Positions 3,447-5,361 of a DNA stretch of 64,000 bases are shown here, one piece after another. This stretch comes from Candidatus Scalindua sp. GTDB taxonomy: Bacteria > Planctomycetota > Brocadiia > Brocadiales > Scalinduaceae. How positions within the stretch are numbered: position 1 is the stretch's first letter; each line of letters opens with the position of its first letter. Below the pieces are notes generated by a model. It saw only the letters and a program-made list of their open reading frames with translations, did no database searches and had not been told where the DNA came from. The stretch spans positions 62,001-126,000 of the forward strand of contig JAIQZR010000010.1 in NCBI GenBank assembly GCA_021777035.1. Direction: 5' to 3'. A program made the translations under genes and the position numbers.

Positions 3447-4373
3447 ATGCGGTGTAAAAACCTGGTTTCAATTGCAGATCTTGAGCGTGAAGATATTGAT
3501 GAGTTGTTTGCGCTAACGGCAGAAATGAAGGAGGCCGGTAAAAAAGATGCTACTGACATCTGCCTTGCCGGCAAAACTCTTGGGATGATATTTGAGAAAA
3601 GCTCTATGCGGACAAGAGTCTCCTTTGAGGTTGCAATGACACAAATGGGAGGACATGCAATATATCTGACCAAGCATGATATAAACCTAGGTGAACGTGA
3701 ATCAATAAAAGACGTTTCAAAGGTTCTGTCTCGGTTTGTTGACTGTATTGCGATAAGGACTTATGATCATGAAACGGTTACCGCACTTGCCGAAAACTCC
3801 TCTGTACCTGTAATTAACGCGCTCTCTGACTATACTCACCCGTGTCAGGCGCTTACGGATTTATATACTATAAAAGAAAAGATAGGTAGTCTTGACAATG
3901 TTAAAGTAGCATATGTTGGTGATGGAAATAATGTTGCCAGGTCATTGGCCTATTTGTGTGCAAAGCTTAAAGTTTCGTATGCGGTTTCTTCTCCGGTAAA
4001 TTATGAATTATCTGCAGAGTTTTTAGAGGCGCTTGAAAATAATGTGAATGGTAAGGACTCCTACATTAAACTAATTGGAGATCCAAGGGACGCAGTTAAA
4101 GATGCCGACATAATCTATACAGATACATGGATTAGCATGGGAGAAGAAGAAGAAGCCGAAACCAGACGTAAGGATTTTCAGGATTTCCAGGTTAATAGTG
4201 AATTGATCTCATATGCAAAAAATGGTGTTTTTGTCATGCATTGTCTGCCTGCTCATCGAGGTGAGGAGATTACGGATGATGTTATTGATGGAGTAAATTC
4301 AATTGTATATGATCAGGCAGAAAACAGGTTACACGTCCAGAAAGCGCTTTTAAAGCTTCTCATTAATAAGTAA
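3447..4373 (+). CDS. argF: Ornithine carbamoyltransferase
   Basis: Transfers the carbamoyl group of carbamoyl phosphate to ornithine, giving citrulline. The carbamoyl-phosphate loop is SSMRTRVSFE near residue 52. The DYTHPCQALTDLYT motif and the C-terminal HCLPAHRGEEI (ornithine-binding Cys-Leu-Pro) are both intact. Length (308 aa) is typical. It starts 17 bp after argD and closes the arginine cluster. Directly downstream lies a palindromic insertion element that separates it from rph. Confidence 0.95.
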   Translation: MRCKNLVSIADLEREDIDELFALTAEMKEAGKKDATDICLAGKTLGMIFEKSSMRTRVSFEVAMTQMGGHAIYLTKHDINLGERESIKDVSKVLSRFVDCIAIRTYDHETVTALAENSSVPVINALSDYTHPCQALTDLYTIKEKIGSLDNVKVAYVGDGNNVARSLAYLCAKLKVSYAVSSPVNYELSAEFLEALENNVNGKDSYIKLIGDPRDAVKDADIIYTDTWISMGEEEEAETRRKDFQDFQVNSELISYAKNGVFVMHCLPAHRGEEITDDVIDGVNSIVYDQAENRLHVQKALLKLLINK

Positions 4374-4386
4374 TCTTCGTTTTTAT

Positions 4387-4577
4387 CAGCAGTGTCCGGT
4401 TAGGTGTTTGCGAGTACGGTTTTTTATGCCAGATCTGTCGGAAGATACGTAGGGCGAGGCTTTAGCCTTGCGCGTAATGTACGAAAGCAAACCTACCCGC
4501 CCGAACGTGCCAGTTCGGTACGGGCGGGTAGGTTTGCCCTACGTGCTACATGCAAAAACCTAACCGGACACTGCTGT
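4387..4577. mobile_element. MITE-like palindromic element with terminal inverted repeats
   Basis: A non-coding element of about 190 bp fills the argF-rph gap. Its ends are perfect 19-bp inverted repeats (4387-4405 and 4558-4576, core AGTGTCCGGTTAGGT and its complement). The 10-bp word GTTTTTATCA occurs directly on both sides (4379-4388 and 4578-4587), consistent with a target-site duplication that overlaps the end of the repeat. Inside are nested palindromes: ACGTAGGGC/GCCCTACGT, and CCTACCCGCCCG/CGGGCGGGTAGG at about 4493-4535. The GC-rich interior contrasts with the AT-rich flanks. The short ORF crossing it is not credible. No transposase is encoded, so any movement would depend on an enzyme elsewhere. 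Confidence 0.7.
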
Positions 4578-4644
4578 GTTTTTATCAAAATAAAATTTTA
4601 TTTAATGCGTAATACAGGCAACAAAGATAGAGGGACATAATATA

Positions 4645-5361
4645 ATGCGAATAGATGGAAGGAAGTCGGATGAGATGCGTCCGGTATTAATAGAAAGAAA
4701 TTATACAAAATTTGCACATGGATCTGTTCTCATAGCAGTTGGAAATACCAAGGTAATATGCACTGCTTTTATTGAAGATAGTGTACCTTCACATAAGAAA
4801 AATTCAGGAGAAGGTTGGATTACGGCAGAATATTCTTTGCTGCCTGGATCGACTCCAAGAAGGGTATCAAGGGAATCATCCAGAGGCAAGGTCGGTGGGC
4901 GTACTCATGAAATTCAAAGGCTGATAGGGCGCTCTATGAGGGCCATAGTTGATCTATCAGCAATAGGAGAAAGGACAATTTGGCTTGATTGTGATGTTAT
5001 TCAAGCTGATGGGGGAACGCGTGTAGCATCTATTACAGGCGCATATGTTGCTTTGGCGGATGCAATCAGCTGGTTGAAGAACAAGGCTGATATCGCGGGA
5101 GAACCTCTTTTAGGTAGTGTAGCGGCAGTGAGTGTGGGCGTAGTGGATGGTGTGCCATTGCTGGACTTGTGTTATGAGGAGGACGTTTCTGCAGATGTCG
5201 ATATGAATATCGTGCTGACGGGTGATGGAGAGTATATTGAGTTACAGGGTACTGCGGAAAAGCAGACGTTCTCAGAAGGAGAGCTTGCCCAAATGATAGG
5301 ACAGGCAAAAAAGGGAATAGGCGAATTGACATTGATACAAAAGAAAGTTTTGATGGGCTAG
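4645..5361 (+). CDS. rph: Ribonuclease PH
   Basis: Phosphorolytic 3'-5' exoribonuclease that trims tRNA precursors as a hexameric ring. At 238 aa it has family length. It opens with [14 protein letters not shown]; the phosphate-binding region [17 protein letters not shown] lies near residue 90 and [11 protein letters not shown] near residue 120. The start follows a GAGGGACATAAT stretch. It is separated from rdgB by only 7 bp, a widespread rph-rdgB pairing. Both are probably in one transcript with the cytochrome gene downstream. Confidence 0.95.

Follow-up and report, generated by a model that had tools for sequence, protein, structure and literature searches.

A bacterium related to the anammox bacteria has a 190-bp piece of non-coding mobile DNA between the housekeeping genes argF and rph. 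Judging from sequence comparisons, it is very probably a MITE that an IS4-family DDE transposase mobilises in trans, and its interior a REPIN-like pair of GTAG REPs. Short of experimental proof, its identity as an IS4-ended MITE is practically established; its mobilisation by the IS4-family transposase with matching ends is what we infer, and there is good support for reading its core (type I below) as two REPs paired in the manner of a REPIN.

The window (the whole stretch of DNA that was analysed, 64 kb) contains only one such element, at positions 4387-4576. It starts 13 bp past the stop codon of argF (ornithine carbamoyltransferase, 3447-4373, plus strand; TIGR00658, 407.9 bits) and ends 68 bp before rph (ribonuclease PH, 4645-5361, plus strand; TIGR01966, 369.6 bits). 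Its boundaries are 30-nt inverted arms (4387-4416 on the plus strand, 4547-4576 on the minus strand), which are 90% complementary; the outer 19 bp (4387-4405 and 4558-4576) are perfect, as stated in an earlier reading made from the sequence only. That sequence-only reading also described a 10-bp direct repeat at the edges. GTTTTTATCA is indeed present at both, at 4379-4388 and 4578-4587, but the duplication itself is 9 bp long, and the trailing CA of the left GTTTTTATCA already belongs to the inverted repeat, as its first two bases. The two copies of the duplication, CGTTTTTAT at 4378-4386 and TGTTTTTAT at 4577-4585, are identical at eight of nine positions, with one mismatch. The element has no transposase gene, and the longest frame that overlaps it (78 aa, GTG start) extends into the flank.

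Concerning the interior, the nested GC-rich palindromes claimed earlier are present but not specific to the element; they are REP-type repeats which are also found outside it. The first half of the inverted pair is REP_A, a GTAG-type palindrome (4448-4472, plus strand; C194:66448-66472), and the second REP lies inverted at 4487-4543 on the minus strand (GCAAACCTA...TAGGTTTGCCCTACG). The apex of the latter is interrupted by a further palindrome of 33 nt, REP_B (4496-4528). An inner inverted repeat, 95% matched, joins 4487-4506 and 4518-4537. Within 4487-4543 the inner arms are nearer to perfect (GGGCGGGTAGGTTTGCCC) than in the usual form of the family (GGGCGGGAAGGATTGCCC), which resembles quasipalindrome correction.

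The element is one of many in its genome. The 15-mer proposed earlier for a genome search has 25 exact sites in the 4.16-Mb genome (17 forward, 8 reverse; 0 for the reversed-pattern control), and a 14-mer with up to one mismatch has 44. BLAST with the element gave at least 78 pieces at roughly 40 places or more, the best 40 of 107 candidates having been scored; several contigs of the draft assembly end inside MITE copies. For the analysis of the flanks we used a set of 84 elements (27 from the own genome, 57 from other genomes) with both ends present and up to four substitutions per end, which leaves out decayed copies and copies cut by contig ends. The copies are dispersed and have common boundaries, and the length of their target-site duplication is constant at 9 bp. 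At least eight of nine positions match in 22 of the 27 own copies (16 perfect, six with one mismatch) versus 0.4% of 702 mismatched flank pairings; the other five match at seven (one copy) or at two to four positions (four copies). Not one of these 27 copies reaches n-1 if the register is set to 8 or 10 bp. In the other genomes 46 of 57 copies reach eight of nine, versus 0.8% of 3192 mismatched pairings. Copies with differing flanking duplications, for which the sequence-only reading proposed to look, were found at different places of the genome. By a crude test, no frame of at least 100 aa is interrupted in 23 of the 24 own copies with enough flank (three are short-flanked). Two own copies have a common left flank: G000:C34:1-303 (L004/L022) and G000:C165:1-302 (L017/L023) share about 110 bp of left flank and the MITE, and then continue into different right flanks, with a matching 9-bp duplication in C165 only. 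This points to recombination at the MITE or to a switch of the assembly there.

The site between argF and rph is empty in relatives. Our search covered 20 genomes (the own genome and 19 relatives), and both genes were found in 12 of 12 relatives of the same genus. The argF and rph blocks of these genomes either overlap or are separated by no more than 71 bp, and therefore none of the 12 has the 190-bp insert. In G006 the blocks overlap by 8 bp, which are exactly the eight identical bases of the duplication, and in G004 by 10 bp. The alternative picture, a single genomic copy with no empty site in relatives, is not what was found; the MITE-like palindromic element first proposed from the sequence is a 190-bp element with many copies, duplications and empty sites.

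The ends of the MITE are common to autonomous elements which encode an IS4-family transposase. Among at least 101 public loci with the exact end motif there are 49 short end pairs, seven pairs 1.1-1.6 kb apart (one of which, L132, more likely represents two separate ends) and 46 loci with neither. Three elements of 1310-1337 bp (L111, L141 and L178) have the MITE's ends and one gene each, and all three proteins match PF01609 and NF033592 (IS4 family). At E 1e-20 the profile built from these three proteins finds 26 of 59 genomes, in a list which includes the own genome and, towards its weaker end, more distant transposases. Within the genus, G002 and G003 contain a full-length IS4-family gene without a stop and G005 one with a single in-frame stop (TAG); the same-genus elements L201, L211 and L212 have the MITE's ends. 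Of 15 full-length IS4-family elements with both ends (L201-L212 with L111, L141 and L178), four (L204, L207, L208 and L212) show a perfect 9-bp duplication, the same length as that of the MITE, and the remaining 11 match at one to five of nine positions, that is, have no duplication; recombination between copies is a possible cause. Same ends on IS4-family elements elsewhere support the earlier description of a small non-autonomous element between argF and rph. A transposase with the same ends, for which that reading also proposed to look, exists in other genomes but not in the window's own assembly, where the three-protein profile found no IS4-family transposase of this type at E <= 0.001. 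This assembly is 95% complete, in 204 contigs, several of which end inside MITE copies, so an IS4 copy may be missing from it; the own genome may have lost its IS4 copy, or may be represented by an assembly without it. The profile found no PDB chains at E 0.01 and the L178 transposase no plasmid records at E 1e-40; the end sequence had two matches in plasmid records at E 3, which is chance level. At three further public loci (L188, L189 and L195, the title of one naming Alphaproteobacteria) the same ends are spaced by 1317-1333 bp, so that the range of the IS may be wider than the groups covered here.

In copies without the third palindrome, the core consists of CGTAGGGCGAGGCTTTAGCCTTGCG, a spacer and GCAAACCTAAAGGATTGCCCTACG, i.e. 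two inverted palindromes with an outer GTAG on each, as in a REPIN. The own genome contains 18 Y1_Tnp places, 17 of them above the cut-off, and at one of the 18 the same REP lies beside a RAYT gene. This locus (C169:24821-25144; L273/L306) encodes a protein that matches NF047646, REP-associated tyrosine transposase, at 107.7 bits (cut-off 80), and is flanked by the 25-bp REP palindrome of the MITE core: one exact copy, one with one mismatch and one with two. The REPs there form two complete inverted pairs and one half, and have no MITE ends. REP_A was not seen in the retrieved flanks of the other 17 Y1_Tnp loci. With up to three mismatches REP_A has 49 sites in the own genome, 46 in the MITE or its remnants and three at the RAYT locus; the repeat therefore travels almost only inside the MITE in this genome. 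Independent dispersal as REP pairs, a trait of REPINs, was not found there, the RAYT locus being the only place free of the MITE. One of the 46 sites, on C41, has no ends near the REP, and the right half of the MITE follows 180 bp further on. A stretch of C41 (G000:C41:1000-1700; L334) is a mosaic of REP-like units, in which the MITE is interrupted by, or lies next to, additional inverted palindromes (GGCGGGTAAGAAACCCGCC, GTCGGG...CCCGAC). REP_A is also present in L235 and L241, 3-kb loci that lack MITE ends and come from two further genera of the order.

In the mechanism we propose, an IS4-family DDE transposase would recognise ends close to CAGYRKTGTCCGGTTAGGTTTTTGC, duplicate 9 bp of the target and move the MITE in trans. 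A RAYT-associated repeat of the same genome would have landed between, or been enclosed by, the IS4 ends, both the capture and its direction being presumed. The enclosed REP pair would then have multiplied by the IS4 route, and in some of the copies a further palindrome would have inserted at the apex of the second REP.

In other genomes, anammox-related and deltaproteobacterial, the MITEs that share these ends contain different inverted palindrome pairs. The hosts named in the record titles are Candidatus Scalindua, Candidatus Brocadia carolinensis, Planctomycetota, Deltaproteobacteria, Desulfuromonadales and, for some, 'bacterium'. The 84 cores form eight clusters between which BLAST makes no connection at E 1e-5 over 60% of a core: type I, with 44 elements of the own genome and relatives; type II, with 27 (ATTCCCGC..GCGGGAAT with ATACCCGA..TCGGGTAT); the CCTCTCCCC type, with six; a similar longer one, with three; and four singles. 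An inverted palindrome pair is recognised by eye in seven of the eight clusters, and neither in L162 nor in L140 (fourth cluster). Some of the pairs (L106, type II) look CGTC-like by eye. A strict hairpin scan found no hairpin in the type I representative, L117 or L162. Twelve cores, one or two from each cluster, were folded: the z values are -2.1 and -3.6 for the two of type I and -0.2 for L140, and lie between -3.9 and -8.4 in the remaining nine, among them L162 with -4.9 yet no clear REP pair. In G008, G010 and G015, 27 of 34 exact type II palindromes are located within 200 bp of a MITE end, where about 0.4-0.5% would be expected per site; four of the seven found away from MITE ends have a different loop. 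The type II MITEs L136, L160, L171, L234 and L243 contain additional short sequences, in part palindromic, close to their REP hairpin tips.

Repeated capture of REP pairs is a reasonable but unproved reading of these cores, whose putative REP identity outside type I is given by palindromic form only; a link to RAYT was shown for type I. We put forward tentatively, with somewhat less than even confidence, that IS4-type MITE ends have been a recurrent vehicle which enclosed unrelated REP pairs in several lineages and spread them instead of RAYT, the apexes gaining palindromes up to three-deep nesting.

Different accounts can be given of the element and of its core. A REPIN/BIME cluster, a structured intergenic RNA or a terminator could mimic a MITE, with the outer inverted repeat as part of a stem; the location between collinear genes and the REP pair in the interior suit this account, as does the fold, since the element as single-stranded DNA reaches -63.5 kcal/mol versus -27.7 (sd 3.3) in 200 shuffles (z -10.8). 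As a full account it is refuted by the 9-bp duplications at 22 of 27 copies, and it is also contradicted by the lack of the insert in each of the 12 relatives of the same genus and by protein-coding IS4 elements that have the same ends. No terminator-like or promoter-like site was found by simple pattern in 4300-4700, and Rfam gave no match near a gathering score, the sole match at E <= 1 being psRNA6, with 17 bits versus a gathering score of 60, at 4581-4625 and thus outside the element. We regard this account as very improbable; a hairpin effect could still be secondary, if transcripts end or are processed there. A second account concerns the origin of the inner palindromes, which might have arisen within the MITE family by fold-back mutation (template switching), the RAYT locus having received its REPs from the MITE. 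The concentration of REP_A in MITEs or remnants (46 of 49 sites) and of the type II palindrome inside MITEs in three relatives (27 of 34) would be expected on it, and the inner arms of the window copy, closer to perfect than is usual in the family, recall quasipalindrome correction. Against this, GTAG-tagged REP_A flanks the RAYT gene as two complete inverted pairs without MITE ends, occurs without such ends in L235 and L241 of other genera, and REP_B is found in several contexts; we consider a fold-back origin unlikely.

Slightly less unlikely, though still the weaker reading in our estimate, is that the MITE family obtained a REP pair once, so that the differing cores would be divergent descendants and not separate captures. 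The inverted-pair layout is common to nearly all cores, and the left shoulder of type I (TTTATACCCGAA) resembles, by eye, half a type II palindrome. A single assembly has to be set against eight clusters which BLAST does not join at the above thresholds and against palindromes as unlike as GGCGAGGCTTTAGCC, ATTCCCGC..GCGGGAAT and CCTCTCCCC..GGGGAGAGG. Also, since the two CCTCTCCCC clusters look alike by eye, independent captures would number fewer than eight.

Among known systems, bacterial IS-derived MITEs such as QMITE2 of Coxiella burnetii are, in the part of the review consulted here (PMC10969869), likewise short and non-coding, with inverted and short direct repeats, a strong fold and many copies; here the ends belong to an IS4-family group and the core is an identifiable REP pair. 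In that review a whole-word text search finds no mention of RAYT, IS4 or nested. REPINs are described, in the section of PMC3116915 used, as REP doublets proposed to be moved by RAYTs. The core studied here agrees with them in its two inverted REPs and spacer and in the same REPs flanking a RAYT gene, and differs in that the pair is enclosed by DDE-transposase ends with 9-bp duplications and in that 46 of 49 REP sites lie in the MITE or remnants. According to the sections of PMC3733652 used, the GTAG-15 dimers of A. variabilis and the CGTC-1 dimers of H. neapolitanus lie inside longer palindromes, and no such palindromes occur there without REPs. A REP pair within a larger palindrome is also the arrangement of the present MITE; section 7 of that paper, however, does not recognise transposon ends in the outer palindrome, whereas here there are transposon ends, a partner IS and duplications. 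The same sections report the CGTC group without a dedicated transposase and leave its mobiliser open, a role for which transposon ends flanked by 9-bp duplications can be named as a concrete candidate. For a hupL MITE of Thiomargarita, a direct repeat of 10 bp and an inverted repeat of 19 bp are described. The 13-base motif GTGTCCGGTTAGG is in no paper text searched, and no description of REP pairs inside IS4 MITEs was found in the open literature as judged by titles and the starts of abstracts. We thus have a new MITE family of a known kind, whose structure, a "REP pair in an IS4 MITE", apparently recurs. As a MITE the element is ordinary; the combination offers a testable answer to how some REP families spread without or besides RAYT, namely as passengers between the ends of a DDE transposon, and REP counts in such genomes can mirror MITE copy number.

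The third palindrome, REP_B (27-33 nt), has 17 own-genome sites at up to three mismatches. In 11 of the 27 own copies, that of the window among them, it splits the second REP at its apex; the apex is uninterrupted in 14 and otherwise altered in two. In L155, a relative's copy, it is the first REP that contains REP_B. ISPpu9, an IS which inserts into REPs (as described in the part of PMC8450116 used), is likewise a mobile unit within a REP; REP_B differs from it as a short palindrome without a gene. In related genomes REP_B is also found outside the MITE, in several contexts. Among the REP_B places listed in relatives, 40 were analysed, with a clean unit in 37. CTT precedes and TAG follows the unit in seven of the 37, two of which are on one contig, and a flank-pairing score of at least 6/7 is reached by five (13.5%) versus 7.4% of mismatched pairs. 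These values weaken the idea that REP_B always sits at REP apexes (CTT^TAG), and a preference for apexes is not established. Many of the other REP_B copies in relatives belong to a different composite repeat (AAATTGAGCGATT...): in L348, L349, L351-L354, L358, L361, L368, L371 and L372 a AAATTGAGCGATT-like stretch is followed by REP_B and often then by TAGCCGC.
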